From Paenibacillaceae bacterium (GTDB taxonomy: Bacteria > Bacillota > Clostridia > Lachnospirales > Lachnospiraceae): 64,000 nt of DNA. This document shows positions 45,983 through 51,100 of this stretch, one piece after another. Numbering within the stretch: position 1 is the first letter of the stretch; every line of letters begins with the position of its first letter. Location: positions 1 through 64,000 of the forward strand of contig SVDS01000009.1 in NCBI GenBank assembly GCA_015057715.1. Reading direction: 5' to 3'. Position numbers and translations under genes: made by a program. The notes beneath the pieces were generated by a model, which searched no databases, was not told the origin of the DNA, and saw only the letters and a list, made by a program, of their open reading frames with translations.

Positions 45983-46020
45983 AAAAAGCTGCCCGGCGAA
46001 CAAGTGCCGGACAGCTTTTA
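45983..46020. terminator. Bidirectional intrinsic terminator
   Basis: AAAAGCTGCCCGGC and GCCGGACAGCTTTT form a 14-position stem (one mismatch) with an 8-nt loop and A/T flanks, between the convergent LysR and nitroreductase genes. Confidence 0.87.
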
Positions 46021-46028
46021 ATCTATTA

Positions 46029-46604
46029 TTATTTCTTTACAACAACTCTCTTATTAATATCTTCTTTCTCTTTCCCATCTGGTTCTGCACCGATGCCTCC
46101 AAATGGCATCTGCCCGATCAGCTTCCAGCCAGCCGGAATGTCAAACAATCTGGCAACCGCCTCGTTGATAACCGGATTATAATGCTGAAGAGATGCTCCC
46201 ACCCCCACTTCCCGCAAAGCAGTCCAGATATTGGACTGAAGCATACCGTTGGACTGATTGGCCCAGACTGGGAAGTTATCTGCATAGAGGGCGAACTGCT
46301 CCTGATATGACTTTATAAGTTCTTCATCGATAAAATAAAGAATGGTTCCATACCCGTTCTTAAAGGAATCAGTCTTACTTTTATCCACCTGCCCGCCAAA
46401 TGCTTCATAGGCACTGTCCCACAGCTGATCCTGCTTCTCTCCAAGTGCAACCACAACTCTGGCACTCTTCATATTGAACGCATCCGGTGTTGCTTCTGTT
46501 ACCTTTCTGATAATATCCAGTACTTCCTCTTCTGATACAGGAAGCTCACGGTTGATATTATAATAGGTTCTTCTCTTCTCAAGGCTCTGAATAAATGACA
46601 TCAT
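46029..46604 (-). CDS. Nitroreductase family protein
   Basis: This 191-residue flavoenzyme is of the short nitroreductase group (about 200 residues) related to HBN1 and YdgI types. It opens FIQSLEKRRTYYNINRELPV, has the FMN-binding NMKSARVVVALG region and the C-terminal IPAGWKLIGQMPFGG. It probably reduces nitro compounds or quinones with NAD(P)H using FMN as a dimer. AGGAGGAAC lies upstream of the first of two ATGs. It has its own promoter. Confidence 0.88.
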   Translation of the reverse strand: MMSFIQSLEKRRTYYNINRELPVSEEEVLDIIRKVTEATPDAFNMKSARVVVALGEKQDQLWDSAYEAFGGQVDKSKTDSFKNGYGTILYFIDEELIKSYQEQFALYADNFPVWANQSNGMLQSNIWTALREVGVGASLQHYNPVINEAVARLFDIPAGWKLIGQMPFGGIGAEPDGKEKEDINKRVVVKK

Positions 46605-46692
46605 GTTTGTTCCTCCTTATTTTATATGAAACCACTATGAGAGTCATCTCACTTCTCACGTGTTTTATTCATTTAACAATTATTATAGTAAA

Positions 46693-46721
46693 ATACTACC
46701 ATATTATTCTACGTAAGTCAA
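46693..46721 (-). promoter_or_regulatory. Promoter of the nitroreductase gene
   Basis: TTGACT (46716-46721), 17-base spacer, TAGTAT (46693-46698) on the minus strand, about 90 bp before the ATG. Confidence 0.55.
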
Positions 46722-46758
46722 TATAGTTTTAATAAATTATATTTAACAAAATCAATTA

Positions 46759-48291
46759 TCAGTAAGATCCGATATCGATCACTCTGTCCACCCAGTCCCT
46801 GTAAAAGGAATTTTCATGGGAAACCAGCAAAACAGTGCCGGAAAATTCCCTTAGTGCCTCTTTGAGTGCCAGTTTTGCCTGTACATCCAGATGATTGGTT
46901 GGCTCATCCAGTATTAAAAAATTATAAGTTCTTCCTGTCAGCAGACATAGCTTAACTTTTGCCTGTTCCCCTCCGCTTAAGGTCCCCACAGGCTGCAGCG
47001 CATGTTTTTTTGATATCCCGTTTTGAGCCAGTTTTTTTCTCACTTCCATTCTCTCCAGCAATGGGAAATGGTCCGATACGATTTCTAATGGTGTCAGACT
47101 GTCATTTTCCCATACCTGATCCTGCTCATAATACCCGATGACTGCCTTTGCAGAAAAACAATAATTACCGCCTATGGCAGGAATCTGATTCATCAGGGTT
47201 TTTAAAAGCGTAGATTTACCCGCTCCATTAAATCCCGTTATCACCACCTTTTCCCCCTCTCTCATAGAAAAATTCACACAGGACAAAACAGGTGAACCGT
47301 ATCCTACAGTCAGATTTGATACCTTCAGTTTTCCTGCCAAAGGAAGCGTCCCCTGATCAAACCGGAAAAAAGGTCTGATTTCTTTTTGATCCAGTGCCTC
47401 CATTCGTTCCAAATGGTCAAGCTGCTTTTGCCTGCCTCTTGCCATTTTTGATTTTCTTCCTGCTATATTTTTACGGATAAATTCTTCTGTCTTTTTAATC
47501 TCTTTTTGCTGTGCGCAGTATTGCTTTGTATAATTTTCCCGAAGCTGGGCCTTCTTTTTCAAAAATTCTCCGTAAGAGCCAAAATATTTTAATACTCTTT
47601 TTTGATCAATATCACAAATCCAGTTTGTAGTTTTGGTCAGAAATCCCTCGTCATGAGAGATCACCATAAATGCCTGTTCGATCCCGCTTAAATAATCCTG
47701 AAGCCAGACAATATGATCATGATCCAAAAAATTGGTAGGCTCATCTAAAAGCAAAACATCTGGCTTCTCAATCAAAAGCTTCGCCATAATGACTTTTGCC
47801 CTCTGGCCACCGCTCATTTCTCCAATCGGACGGTTAAACCCAAGGGAAGAGAGCCCCAGCCCCTGACAAACCTGATCAATCTGTGAATCGATCCGGTAAA
47901 AATCACGATGCTCCAATTGTTCCTGGCAGACAGCAGCCGCCTTAAGCGCTCCTTCCTGCCCTCTGGCTGCACGCTCATACAGCTCCATCATCTTTTTCTC
48001 CAGAATATAGAGCTCCTCAAATGCTGTTTTTAAAAATGCTCTCATTGTCATCCCATTATCCATGCTGGCATATTGATCCAGATAACCCACTTTTGTCCCG
48101 GGATACCACACCACTCTGCCCTGATCCGGTATGATCTGTTCTGTACAAATTTTAATCAGGGTACTTTTTCCTGTACCATTCTGCCCTGTAATTCCAATAT
48201 GTTCTCCTTTATTAAGAACTAAATCTGTTTCATAAAATAACTGATTATCTCCAAATGAATGAGATAAGCCTGTAATCTCCAATAAACTCAC
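46759..48291 (-). CDS. ABC-F family ATPase (ribosome-associated, possible antibiotic resistance)
   Basis: This 510-residue protein has two ABC domains and no membrane part. Domain 1 has GITGQNGTGKST, EMSGGQRAK and LLLDEPTNFLD. A basic linker (KNIAGRKSKMARGRQKQLDH, about residues 275-295) corresponds to the arm that enters the ribosome. Domain 2 has GFNGAGKST, LSGGEQAKVKLC and LILDEPTNHLD. The start codon is GTG with GAAGGAA upstream. A 396-nt leader with a coding leader peptide and terminators precedes it, which is characteristic of drug-inducible ribosome-protecting ABC-F genes. Which drug class, if any, is unknown. Confidence 0.88.
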   Translation of the reverse strand: MSLLEITGLSHSFGDNQLFYETDLVLNKGEHIGITGQNGTGKSTLIKICTEQIIPDQGRVVWYPGTKVGYLDQYASMDNGMTMRAFLKTAFEELYILEKKMMELYERAARGQEGALKAAAVCQEQLEHRDFYRIDSQIDQVCQGLGLSSLGFNRPIGEMSGGQRAKVIMAKLLIEKPDVLLLDEPTNFLDHDHIVWLQDYLSGIEQAFMVISHDEGFLTKTTNWICDIDQKRVLKYFGSYGEFLKKKAQLRENYTKQYCAQQKEIKKTEEFIRKNIAGRKSKMARGRQKQLDHLERMEALDQKEIRPFFRFDQGTLPLAGKLKVSNLTVGYGSPVLSCVNFSMREGEKVVITGFNGAGKSTLLKTLMNQIPAIGGNYCFSAKAVIGYYEQDQVWENDSLTPLEIVSDHFPLLERMEVRKKLAQNGISKKHALQPVGTLSGGEQAKVKLCLLTGRTYNFLILDEPTNHLDVQAKLALKEALREFSGTVLLVSHENSFYRDWVDRVIDIGSY

Positions 48292-48370
48292 GTCTTACTT
48301 CCTTCTTTCCTGTGTTCATTTCAAATACAGACCGTTTCCTCTTTCAATCCTAATATCCCCTCTGCTAAAT

Positions 48371-48420
48371 TGTAATAAAAAAACAGAAGACCTGGATCAA
48401 ACTTTCTCAGCCTTCTGTTT
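48371..48420 (-). terminator. Leader terminator 2 upstream of the ABC-F gene (attenuator)
   Basis: AAACAGAAG/CTTCTGTTT stem (48412-48420 with 48381-48389), extended by CTG/CAG, followed on the minus strand by a run of seven T. It lies about 80 nt before the ABC-F start, inside its leader, so read-through must be needed for expression. Confidence 0.8.
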
Positions 48421-48431
48421 CAACTTAATAC

Positions 48432-48470
48432 AACAAAAGGCCATGAACAATTAAAACATTGTCCATGACC
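48432..48470 (-). terminator. Leader terminator 1 upstream of the ABC-F gene (attenuator)
   Basis: A 13-bp RNA stem (48458-48470 with 48439-48451, two G-U pairs, 6-nt loop) followed by TTTTGTTGTATT on the minus strand. Upstream segments GGGAAACAG and GCAAAAAG have complements closer to this hairpin, so alternative folds are possible. Confidence 0.7.
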
Positions 48471-48573
48471 CTTCACCGCAAAAAGAAGCAGGGAAAACAG
48501 GCATCAAAAGAAGAAACAGCCTGTAACGCTGTTCTTTTTGCTGCACTGTTTCCCGATGAATCTTATAAGCGTA

Positions 48574-48666
48574 TCAGTAACCGCCATACTCTGTACAATG
48601 TTTCACCGGGTTGATTTGTACAGAGCTCATTCGTCTTGTCAGTTGATCGCTAATAAAGAAATTCAT
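48574..48666 (-). CDS. Leader peptide (30 residues) of the ABC-F attenuator
   Basis: A 31-codon frame, too short for standard ORF lists, opens with ATG at 48666 behind AAGGAGA at ideal spacing and ends TGA at 48574. It begins MNFFISDQLTRRM and ends HCTEYGGY. It starts about 22 nt after the predicted start of transcription and stops about 100 nt before the first leader terminator. The layout suggests that ribosome stalling on it by an antibiotic switches the downstream RNA fold. Translation is inferred from the ribosome binding site and context. Confidence 0.65.
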   Translation of the reverse strand: MNFFISDQLTRRMSSVQINPVKHCTEYGGY

Positions 48667-48687
48667 ATCTGCTCTCCTTGCCTTTGA

Positions 48688-49875
48688 TTAAATGACTATA
48701 TCACTATCTTGTTTTTCTGTCAACCCAGGCACATCTCTATCGGACTTGCCTCCTGCTGGGATCAGTTTCCACACAAGTATACTGATAGCAGTCAGGAATA
48801 CAGCACATAGAAAATAGGGCGCCTTTCCGCCGGCAAGCAAAAAAACACTTCCTCCAATAAATGGGCCAATGATTCTGCCCAGACTGGTGCTAAGCATATA
48901 CTTTCCATAAAAATCTCCCATTACCTGCTCCGGAACTCCTTGCACAAAAATAGCATCCAAAGAATAGTCCTGTGCCGTAAGTGCTATCTGATACAAGGTC
49001 CAGACAATGGCAAATATCTGCAGATTGGGGCTGAAAACCAGCAAAACCATGAAAACAGCCGCAATCAGAGTAGCGGAAAAAATTGTTTTCTTATAGCCCA
49101 GATTATCTCCAATCTGCCCAATTCTTGGACTTAAAAAGGCAGTAATAATTACCGGCATCATAAAGACTAATCCAATTGCCTGCATATCCACATGATATGA
49201 CGCCATCATATATGGAATCACTAAAACTCCCACCAGGCTGACAGGTATACAATATAAAAGATTCAACATCCAGATCTTCTGTTCCAGGGGAGTATAAACC
49301 ACTTTCCCAGCCCTGGAAGCCAGTTCACTTGCATGAGAAGGTTTCTTTATAAATACAAGAATCAGCGAAACAAATGCAAAAGCAGAACTGATTAAAAAGA
49401 TCTTGCTCCAACCCTCTAAAAAATCAGTGCGGTTTAGTACATAAAATGTCAGACCGATTCCTATGATTCCGCCCAACTGCCGGTTCCCGCCATATCTTCC
49501 AAGCCCTTTTGCAAAACTTGTTTTCTCAGCTGTAATCAGGCTGACGGCTGAAATTGTCAAGAGAATCCCTGCCGCTCCCTGTATCATTCTTGCCGTCAGT
49601 AAATATCCCAGACCTCTTGCCTGGGAATATAAAAAATAAGCGATCCCGTATAGAAACATGGCAGAGCACAGCACCAGAAAACGGCTGTAACGGTCTGAAA
49701 TCTTCCCAATCAGTAATCTCATCATCAATTCTGAGAACGAATAAACAGAATAGAGAATACTTAACTGAAACACAGTGTATCCCAGCTCCGTGGTATAGGC
49801 TGGCAGTAAAAAGTCAAAAACCAGGCATGGCAGAGAAACCAGAATAATTGATAATGCTACTTTTTCATACTTCAT
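48688..49875 (-). CDS. MFS transporter (drug exporter-like)
   Basis: This is a 395-residue major facilitator protein with 12 predicted helices. The loop between helices 2 and 3 reads LIGKISDRYSRFLV, a version of the MFS motif A (GxxxDRxxRR), and the fifth helix region contains GRYGGNRQLGGIIGIGL. Substrate is unknown; the MFS_1 drug-exporter type is most likely. AGGGGGAG precedes the ATG. Its 3' end carries the promoter of the downstream ABC-F leader, so the two genes are adjacent but separately controlled. Confidence 0.87.
   Translation of the reverse strand: MKYEKVALSIILVSLPCLVFDFLLPAYTTELGYTVFQLSILYSVYSFSELMMRLLIGKISDRYSRFLVLCSAMFLYGIAYFLYSQARGLGYLLTARMIQGAAGILLTISAVSLITAEKTSFAKGLGRYGGNRQLGGIIGIGLTFYVLNRTDFLEGWSKIFLISSAFAFVSLILVFIKKPSHASELASRAGKVVYTPLEQKIWMLNLLYCIPVSLVGVLVIPYMMASYHVDMQAIGLVFMMPVIITAFLSPRIGQIGDNLGYKKTIFSATLIAAVFMVLLVFSPNLQIFAIVWTLYQIALTAQDYSLDAIFVQGVPEQVMGDFYGKYMLSTSLGRIIGPFIGGSVFLLAGGKAPYFLCAVFLTAISILVWKLIPAGGKSDRDVPGLTEKQDSDIVI
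48695..48723 (-). promoter_or_regulatory. Promoter of the ABC-F leader, inside the MFS gene end
   Basis: A consensus TTGACA (48718-48723), 17-base spacer and TATAGT (48695-48700) with TG one base before it, on the minus strand. Transcription would begin near 48688, at the MFS stop codon. Confidence 0.8.
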
Positions 49876-49888
49876 AAACTCCCCCTTG

Positions 49889-51100
49889 TTAAACAGAACT
49901 AAATGCCTGGTCTATATCCTTCGTAATGTCCGAATCCACAAACCCATTGTCCGCCATATCAGAAAGGACTTTAACTGCCTGATTATGAGGCATTCCAGTC
50001 CTATAAGGGCGATCCTCCGTAAGCGCCTGGTACACATCAAGGCATCCCATCATGCGTGAATTAAAATCCAGTTCAGCCCCTGTTTTACCAAAGGGATATC
50101 CCTTCCCATTCAGCTTTTCATGGTGGTTGGCAGCCCATTCTGTGATGTCCTCAAACCCCCTGATGTTCTCAAGTGCAACTCTTGTATAATACACATGTTT
50201 TTTTACTGTCTCAAATTCCTCCGGTGTCAGGGCACGGGGAACGTCAAGAATACTGTTCGGCACAGCCAGCTTTCCTAAATCATGCAAATCAGCTGCAATA
50301 ATCAGTCTGGCCGTCTCCTCCTGATCCTTATTATAATATTCAGCCATTCGGGCCGCTTTTTCTGCCAGACCCTTGGAATGGCGTCTGGTAAAGCTGGATT
50401 TACAGTCGACAATTCTGGAGAATACGCCGGTAACCTGACGAATTTTATCCAGAGGCACCTCCATCTCAAAAGACGGAATCACTTCATCAAGTGCCTGTTC
50501 AATCCTGTCATTGCTTAGATTATTCCAGACTGACTGATCTTTTACCATCTGATCAAGAACTTTGGCAAGCTGGGGACAAACCATACCTGCCTGACAAATC
50601 GACAGCCATTTTAGCACTTCTCCATGAGAATAATCTCCGTCTGCATACTTAAAATAGTTTTCAAAACTGTCAGCCGCTGCAATAATCTGGGAAATGAGGG
50701 GTATTTCATCTCCCTTTAACCCGAAATACCCATTTCCGTCATAACGCTCATGATGATAGAGAATTATATCCTGAGGTTTTGTCAGAAACGGGTAGTCTTT
50801 TATATTCTTTTCTCCAATCACACAATGGCCTCTGGTGCCTTCGAACCTGGTTACTGCATGATCCCATTCCTCGGGAAGCTGTTCATAAAGGCTTGATTCA
50901 CTTATACCGTTATCATGTAGGATGGAAAGCGCAGCTGCATCATAAATCTCTTCCTCTGATAAATTCATCCTTCTGGCTATGCATACGGTTAAATAAGCCG
51001 TTCTCTTTCCATGATTAGACTGCATTCCCAGCCGGTCCATCTCCACAAAATCCAATGCAAAGGAAACAGCTATTAAAAAATCATTTAAGCTGAATTGCAT
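49889..51100 (-). CDS. Tandem HD/HD-GYP domain phosphohydrolase
   Basis: This 403-residue cytoplasmic protein has two HD-type halves. The first has SILHDNGIS near residue 70, HHERYDGNGYFG near 115 and AAADSFENYF. The second is a full HD-GYP type with DLHDLGKLAVP near residue 272, HHEKLNGKGYPFG near 323 and DVYQALTEDRPYR. HD-GYP proteins degrade cyclic di-GMP or related dinucleotides. There is no receiver or sensor domain; the first HD half may have that role. It is 13 bp upstream of the MFS gene in the same direction. Confidence 0.88.
   Translation of the reverse strand: MQFSLNDFLIAVSFALDFVEMDRLGMQSNHGKRTAYLTVCIARRMNLSEEEIYDAAALSILHDNGISESSLYEQLPEEWDHAVTRFEGTRGHCVIGEKNIKDYPFLTKPQDIILYHHERYDGNGYFGLKGDEIPLISQIIAAADSFENYFKYADGDYSHGEVLKWLSICQAGMVCPQLAKVLDQMVKDQSVWNNLSNDRIEQALDEVIPSFEMEVPLDKIRQVTGVFSRIVDCKSSFTRRHSKGLAEKAARMAEYYNKDQEETARLIIAADLHDLGKLAVPNSILDVPRALTPEEFETVKKHVYYTRVALENIRGFEDITEWAANHHEKLNGKGYPFGKTGAELDFNSRMMGCLDVYQALTEDRPYRTGMPHNQAVKVLSDMADNGFVDSDITKDIDQAFSSV

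Follow-up and report, generated by a model that had tools for sequence, protein, structure and literature searches.

The leader and its uup RNA

The window analysed here is the whole of a 64,000-nucleotide stretch of genomic DNA from a Paenibacillaceae bacterium (assembly GCA_015057715.1, contig SVDS01000009.1, positions 1 to 64,000; Lachnospiraceae in the GTDB lineage). On its minus strand, a gene of the major facilitator superfamily (MFS) that ends with a stop at 48688 is followed by a gene for an ABC-F ATPase. The leader that precedes the latter had been taken, in a sequence-only reading, for an attenuator in which a ribosome stalled on a leader peptide relieves transcription termination before the ABC-F gene. 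Our comparison with related leaders supports this logic: the attenuator is real, and it belongs to a widespread family already present in Rfam without a function. The features of the locus are as follows.

48695-48723, minus strand: promoter TTGACA N17 TATAGT with an extended -10, inside the 3′ end of the MFS gene (sequence scan)
48672-48679, minus strand: Shine-Dalgarno sequence of the leader open reading frame (ORF), AAGGAGAG (read from the sequence)
48574-48666, minus strand: leader ORF, stop included, 30 codons, peptide MNFFISDQLTRRMSSVQINPVKHCTEYGGY (ORF list, frame in relatives, synonymous excess)
48631-48633, minus strand: codon 12 (Arg), conserved basic position and predicted A-site codon of the stalled ribosome
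48588-48635, minus strand: Rfam RF03060 uup RNA, full length, 48/48 (covariance-model match)
48616-48626, minus strand: segment 1 (A), 5′ arm of the anti-antiterminator hairpin (alignment pairing)
48602-48610, minus strand: hairpin loop CCCGGTGAA, complementary to segment C (alignment pairing)
48583-48603, minus strand: segment 2 (B), partner of A (OFF) or of the terminator 1 5′ arm and loop (ON)
48552-48560, minus strand: segment C, TTCATCGGG
48489-48558, minus strand: C:D hairpin, in the interval between leader ORF and terminator 1 (co-variation)
48432-48470, minus strand: terminator 1, hairpin 48470-48439 and U tail to 48432
48470-48454, minus strand: segment 3, the terminator 1 5′ arm and loop
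48442-48433, minus strand: segment 4, the terminator 1 3′ arm and U tail, GGCCUUUUGU in the window
48376-48419, minus strand: terminator 2 (stem search)
48418-48409, minus strand: segment 5, the terminator 2 5′ arm, ACAGAAGGCU in the window, complementary to segment 4
48298-48308, minus strand: Shine-Dalgarno region of the ABC-F gene
46759-48291, minus strand: ABC-F ATPase gene, GTG start, 510 amino acids

The promoter, the leader ORF of 30 amino acids with its strong Shine-Dalgarno sequence and the two tandem intrinsic terminators ahead of the GTG had all been proposed from the sequence, and were borne out. The promoter agrees with the consensus at 11 of 12 positions and ranks first among 20 promoter-like sites in the interval 46000-50500 (9.5 in shuffles). 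Both terminators were found by reading and by stem searches, and terminator 1 also by folding and by alignment with relatives; a generic terminator scan of the window listed neither of them.

A covariance-model scan of the window yielded a single Rfam match above cut-off, the uup RNA (RF03060), which lies inside the leader ORF (62.9 bits against a gathering cut-off of 36.8, E 8e-10, model positions 1-48 of 48) and is the only copy found in this genome. The original description of uup RNA is reportedly that of Weinberg et al. 2017, which may already mention an ORF. As reported in a review, uup motifs occur in Bacillota and Gammaproteobacteria; in C. difficile the motif lies upstream of the Uup-family ATPase gene CD3359, and it is treated there among riboswitch-like motifs, without further evidence of being a riboswitch (PMC11477304). 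Beyond this review no further treatment of uup RNA was found among the open papers listed, a search that Weinberg et al. 2017 lay outside. The window's motif corresponds to the one described in being a full-length match located upstream of an ABC-F/Uup-type ATPase gene (48291-46759), as for CD3359 (PMC11477304). On the other hand, what has been described as a riboswitch-like motif of no known function (PMC11477304) is here the 3′ half of a leader ORF that is translated, and forms part of a longer attenuator; elsewhere it precedes MATE, Mef-like MFS and other genes.

Coding selection and conserved pairings in related leaders

Scans with RF03060 at E ≤0.001 were positive for 13 of 299 family genomes, 11 of them exceeding the Rfam cut-off, for 8 of 392 from the order (7 above) and for 4 of 398 from the phylum (all 4 above), each count including the window's own genome. 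These genome scans contributed 24 loci, and another 120 were among the matches listed for an RNA-only pattern scan (at least 120), giving 144. Fourteen were set aside from all counts, 13 of them by eye as chance matches (L013, L027, L031, L034, L041, L044, L048, L054, L081, L082, L089, L105 and L107) and L028 for a contig end 9 bases on, which leaves 130 loci, duplicates among them. Two of those set aside score above the cut-off, L028 (55.4 bits), a true member, and L027 (41.0 bits), which looks like one; L041 is likewise a likely member, with a sub-threshold match (27.6 against 36.8 bits) yet the full terminator architecture; the remaining 11 gave no uup match at the gathering threshold. L027 is an Izhakiella contig, a member outside the Bacillota, and its terminator lacks the usual loop sequence. 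Excluding L012, L021, L036, L108 and L113 from the alignment set left 125 sequences, of which 69 under 90% similarity form the non-redundant set; excluding also L068, whose terminator 1 is of unusual form, gave the 68 loci of alignment A1. The terminator ends of L009, L088 and L139 were set by hand in the alignment; these loci were excluded from folding (65 leaders), and their misplaced terminators are still among the 68 used for the shuffle and swap controls on B and the terminator arm. Relatedness among loci inflates all shuffle and swap controls. In a sample of 12 loci, 10 exceed the Rfam cut-off, MATE and MFS ones among them, and L059 and L068 fall below it. The upstream promoter is enriched in the related leaders: within 102 nt upstream of the leader start, 55 of 68 have a site matching at least 9 of 12 positions (10.7 expected) and 49 of 68 one matching at least 10 (1.6 expected).

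Absence of a conserved peptide frame had been named beforehand as grounds for abandoning the attenuator. Our results show instead that the best start codon is in frame with segment A in 125 of the 130 loci (at most 126 of 133 with L027, L028 and L041 included). The distance from start codon to segment A is 47 nt in 76 loci, 53 in 28 and 50 in 9. We compared the codons of this interval among the 68 distinct sequences of the 47-nt class, in pairs differing at no more than 8 positions. Synonymous changes numbered 264 against 139 expected, non-synonymous changes 166 against 280 expected, and there were no stops against 10.5 expected, while the other two frames held 43 and 68 changes to or from stop. 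This comparison indicates that the leader ORF, with its ribosome binding site, is translated and under coding selection 5′ of the motif.

One position stands out in this interval. Codon 12 encodes Lys or Arg in 63 of the 68 distinct 47-nt-class leaders. With all length classes pooled, 56 of the 69 non-redundant leaders have Lys or Arg five residues ahead of the segment A Gln, including 7 of the 14 that precede MATE genes; the window has Arg there, five codons 5′ of the Gln codon in segment A. For the vmlR leader, the reported toeprint lies 16 nt 3′ of the start-codon A (PMC9226507). If the leading edge of a ribosome lies about 16 nt beyond the first base of its P-site codon, a ribosome at the conserved basic position is predicted to cover segment A.

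Two candidate stalling signals were rejected. The sequence K[HR]CxE/K at the C-terminal end of the peptide, which 119 of 130 loci keep in frame, cannot be a required stalling sequence, since frame-shifted and early-stopping leaders exist; in L012 and L021 the stop directly follows segment A. Comparison of the leaders thus refines the initial proposal, in that the C-terminal half of the peptide is not required, and its conservation elsewhere is, at least in part, conservation of the RNA. The macrolide +X+ motif, as a universal rule, fails too: it occurs in 34 of 69 leaders (14.6 expected) and is absent from the window's. No conserved slippery site that would suggest frameshifting was seen by eye, no dedicated test having been run.

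The pairings of the leader RNA are conserved as well. On A1, the A:B hairpin is paired in 96.5% of cells, with two-sided changes at 5 of its 11 pairs, and the loop:C helix in 93.2% over eight pairs, with two-sided changes at 4 of the 8 (a ninth, outer pair is weak, 58.2%); the terminator 1 stem is paired at 97.8% and 98.5%. Together, A:B, loop:C and this stem are paired in 95.1% of cells and show 154 two-sided changes against 45.8 in shuffles (0 of 500). The competing helix, of B with the terminator 1 arm and loop (B:T), is paired in 97.6% of cells over 8 pairs and shows 18 two-sided changes against 6.2 in shuffles (0 of 500). All 18 are A-U to G-C changes, 13 at one pair and 5 at another, and both pairs have their 3′ side in the terminator 1 loop, which is unpaired in the terminator itself. 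Two clades extend B:T. In one, TTAATC after B accompanies GATTRA before terminator 1 (both in 13 loci, a single one in 2 and 3, neither in 50; Fisher p 1.7e-9). In the other, TATRGC and GCYAT are fully paired in 27 of 31 loci, the observed value being reached by 7 of 2000 swaps, and the window carries this second type as ATGGC with GTCAT. In 59 of the 68 loci, the native duplex of the terminator arm with B is equalled or bettered by at most 5 of 100 dinucleotide-shuffled arms. The alternative pairing read in the segments 3′ of the peptide is conserved in related loci, and the leader holds a mutually exclusive anti-antiterminator, antiterminator and terminator, with conserved, co-varying pairings and, in most leaders, a switch between them in the fold model (in the window's own only with C set aside).

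The C:D hairpin (48489-48558) is long and strongly co-varying, with 86.1% of cells paired and 70 cells with two-sided changes against 20.0 in shuffles (0 of 500); pause site and holder of C are candidate roles for it.

Folding of the leader and the tandem terminators

We folded 65 leaders as transcripts ending before the terminator 1 3′ arm, representing the ribosome footprint by unpaired bases. The mean number of B:T pairs was 4.7 in ribosome-free transcripts and rose to 12.7 when codon ~11 occupied the P site; it was 4.5 for a ribosome on the start codon and 0.0 for one placed at the end of B. Five or more B:T pairs formed in 26, 61, 22 and 0 of the 65, respectively. When C was set aside, as it would be in a pseudoknot, five B:T pairs were reached by 13 of 65 free, 58 of 65 stalled and 10 of 65 initiating leaders. 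Masking A thus switches the computed fold, and the masks make an elongation stall before segment A, not initiation, the predicted signal. A second refinement follows: as a start-codon ribosome leaves the OFF hairpin intact in this model, drugs of the peptidyl transferase centre that stall at initiation, as in known tripeptide leaders, are not predicted to be the best inducers.

The mechanism that we propose runs as follows. RNA polymerase would initiate at the promoter that overlaps the end of the MFS gene, then transcribe the 30-codon leader ORF. In uninduced cells ribosomes would pass through, and A:B would form behind them, perhaps steadied by loop:C, and then C:D; terminator 1 would form and stop transcription, with terminator 2 catching the leak-through. 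An elongating ribosome that stalls at codons 11-12, at the conserved basic codon, would cover segment A with its footprint. The freed B would pair with the terminator 1 5′ arm and loop, so that this terminator could no longer form; the 3′ arm of terminator 1, thereby released, would pair with the 5′ arm of terminator 2 and disable it, and the ABC-F gene would be transcribed. The OFF state would consist of 1:2, 3:4 and 5:6, and the ON state of 2:3 and 4:5. We infer in what order these events occur, what part loop:C plays and that the 4:5 relay works in vivo.

The last step of this relay is suggested by complementarity: with the terminator 1 5′ arm bound by B, the 3′ arm of that terminator is free to bind the terminator 2 5′ arm. 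In the window, segments 4 and 5 are complementary over ten bases (10 of 10 counting G-U), and across the folding set the duplex of segment 4 with the downstream 110 nt is at or below 5 of 100 shuffles in 50 of 65 loci. It is possible, if less probable, that terminator 2 is an independent back-up and that the 4:5 complementarity arises only from the likeness of the two terminators' 3′ arms, the attenuator being otherwise as described. The two 3′ arms are indeed alike (GCCTTTTGT and GCCTTCTGC), and a first, looser choice of sites gave a weaker swap control, with 15 and 14 of 2000 swaps. That first choice of the terminator 2 arm had wrong sites in several loci; with the choice redone and sites re-maximised, the summed 4:5 score is 468 for native pairs against 451 (sd 4.4) on swapping between loci, and 0 of 500 swaps reach the observed score. 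Moreover, opening terminator 1 alone, with terminator 2 unrelieved, would give no full-length message.

Genes behind the leader and the competing readings

The genes behind the leader come from loci found by RNA-only queries. The first gene is of the ABC-F type in 89 of the 130 loci, MATE in 21, an MFS gene nearest to Mef(A)/Mef(B) in 9 and unassigned in 11; the non-redundant set gives 41, 14, 8 and 6, respectively. Families were checked on a sample of five MFS and five MATE proteins, then more, and all Mef matches are under the curated cut-offs. The unassigned class consists of 10 loci with no more than 430 bases of contig left and of L021, where a sub-threshold uup-like leader with an early stop, and without the usual terminator 1 in sight, precedes a metallo-beta-lactamase-fold gene nearest to subclass B3 models, far below their cut-off. 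Outside the 130, L041 (951-1801) has its uup-like leader (27.6 bits) and the usual terminator before a Vat-like streptogramin A acetyltransferase gene, whose product matches the Vat family best (241 bits against a cut-off of 300). Among 38 ABC-F loci with room, 3 have a Mef-like MFS gene next in row (L119, L097 and L127). The leader of L042, which was counted as MFS, is almost identical to theirs and is followed by an ABC-F fragment and then the MFS gene. Some genomes hold two copies of the leader, each ahead of a different class of gene; in G046 these are ABC-F (L004) and MFS (L014), and in G179 ABC-F (L011) and MATE (L015). In L025 the MATE gene behind the leader is broken by an in-frame stop.

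In the window, the ABC-F protein has an ortholog of at least 60% identity in 4 of 120 genomes of the family, the same four that alone among those 120 carry an above-cut-off uup match; a relative of 41-44% identity occurs in 53 of the 120. Its nearest neighbours in sequence and structure are YbiT, YheS, EttA, Uup and PoxtA, the last being the nearest solved resistance type. It scores 368.3 bits with the NCBIfam model NF000355 (ribo_prot_ABC_F; cut-off 380) and falls well short of the thresholds of those named resistance models that are among the best 25 matches shown. Both ATPase sites are intact, the key residues of Walker A, signature, Walker B and H-loop being invariant in 23 aligned sequences. 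An alignment-based AlphaFold model (mean pLDDT 83.7) places in the interdomain region, where resistance ABC-Fs have an extended loop (the resistance domain), two helices, 240-276 and 283-298, linked by a six-residue loop of locally low confidence; a single-sequence model was discarded (mean pLDDT 35.6). From its context, we infer that this protein confers resistance.

The coding selection on the ORF, the conserved and co-varying pairings and the downstream genes, mostly of resistance or efflux type, are best explained by a portable, ribosome-stall-sensing attenuator of resistance-type genes that acts through tandem terminators, a reading to which we give a probability of about 0.78. The stall would presumably be caused by ribosome-targeting antibiotics, with macrolide-like elongation stallers as a first guess. 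We also lean, with somewhat more reserve, towards the view that the uup RNA family as a whole is not a riboswitch but such a stall-sensing leader, carried before several unrelated kinds of gene and opening two terminators per stalled ribosome through a six-segment relay.

Several observations weigh against the attenuator as described. Relief of termination by a stalled ribosome fits the comparative tests (frame, pairings and footprint folding), but the window's own leader is among the four non-switchers of the plain nested model, with 0.0 B:T pairs on stalling, because loop:C with its nine pairs wins over B:T; only with C set aside as in the pseudoknot does it switch (0.0 B:T pairs free, 9.4 stalled, 0.0 at initiation). 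L059 and L131 switch in neither fold model, and 26 of the 65 leaders reach at least five B:T pairs without any ribosome. The number of B:T pairs with two-sided changes is not above shuffles (466 of 500; 171 of 500), and a B segment swapped in from another locus does nearly as well, the native one being above the swapped mean in 39 of 68 loci only. The window's peptide lacks a K/R-X-K/R motif (T10 R11 R12). Paenibacillus-type leaders, with extra loop bases, end in another frame, and their C-terminal residues are not conserved, and in the likely members L027 and L041 segment A lies outside the usual frame of the leader picked. Finally, an above-cut-off uup RNA precedes a GNAT acetyltransferase gene in L181 (6305-7031) and a class I methyltransferase gene in L027 (4823-5834), neither with an evident resistance role.

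Sensing of something other than a drug has to be considered here. The leader could respond to slow elongation in general or to a lack of charged Lys/Arg tRNA, as in trp-type attenuation, with an ABC-F protein that serves ribosomes stalled by any cause. The Lys or Arg that 56 of 69 leaders carry five residues before the segment A Gln would suit such a sensor, and so would the proximity of the window's protein to the housekeeping ABC-Fs YbiT, YheS, EttA and Uup. We nevertheless hold this improbable: the leader also precedes MATE, Mef-like efflux and Vat-like (L041) genes, which are no answer to amino-acid shortage, half of the MATE leaders lack the basic residue, and an ortholog in only 4 of 120 family genomes is as patchy as a resistance gene. 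Less probable still is a ligand-binding riboswitch in which the overlapping ORF would be incidental. Its loop and hairpin are highly conserved, and the motif has been reviewed among riboswitch-like ones (PMC11477304). However, pairing with C can explain why the loop is conserved, and pairing with terminator 1 why B is; the review itself reports no further evidence for a riboswitch (PMC11477304), and the frame is conserved. Moreover, the motif is no non-coding aptamer, as it lies inside an ORF whose codons upstream of it are under coding selection.

The stall-sensing attenuator has parallels in known systems. In the vmlR leader of Bacillus subtilis, as reported, the upstream ORF (uORF) likewise lies within an anti-antiterminator hairpin, and a stalled ribosome lets an antiterminator replace the intrinsic terminator before an ABC-F gene (PMC9226507). 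That uORF has three codons (MIN) and the stalling occurs at initiation (PMC9226507), whereas the leader studied here has 30 codons and a predicted stall at codons 11-12; the RNA is different, and two terminators are apparently opened in relay. The cplR leader of Clostridioides difficile similarly relieves termination before a clostridial ABC-F gene by drug-induced uORF stalling, but its uORF is Met-Arg-Ile, its terminator stem sequesters the Shine-Dalgarno sequence, and uup RNA was not seen in the portions of that report at hand (PMC10201436). Masking the start codon, by contrast with these tripeptide leaders, opens nothing here (22 of 65 leaders against 26 of 65 without a ribosome). Leader peptides and transcription attenuators also control the Mef efflux and ABC-F genes of mefA/msrD (MefAL and MsrDL; PMC10314930), whose peptides (MTASMRLR, MYLIFM) are unrelated by sequence to those described here. 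The likeness lies in the three loci in which a uup leader, an ABC-F gene and a Mef-like MFS gene are consecutive; in these, a single leader stands ahead of both genes. By its title, a work on the RppA ribo-regulator of Bacillus thuringiensis (Cai et al. 2021) is said to concern an ABC-F-type ribosomal protection gene with a ribosome-dependent leader.

The attenuator proposed here would give a concrete, testable function to an orphan Rfam family listed beside riboswitches in one review, and a single leader module occurs ahead of unrelated genes of several kinds, for efflux, drug modification and ribosome protection; the carriers are mostly Bacillota and in many cases gut bacteria. Should drug induction be confirmed, the uup motif would serve as a sequence tag for inducible resistance-type genes with unrecognised products, and the tandem-terminator relay, if true, would extend the classical attenuator.

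The leader also occurs on viral contigs. In L182 (53-7719; IMGVR_UViG_2565956789_000002) a uup leader and a MATE gene lie between capsid/tail-tube and tape-measure genes, that is, a drug-efflux-type cassette inside a phage structural cluster, and in the viral contigs L176 and L180 a uup match precedes an ORF that by eye resembles the MATE gene of L182. BLAST of the window's leader against plasmids gave no match, and the ABC-F gene matched 8 plasmid records over short stretches at 70-78% identity. In the window itself, an HD_5-domain gene (49889-51100) comes before the MFS gene, and a nitroreductase-family gene (46029-46604) comes after the ABC-F gene.

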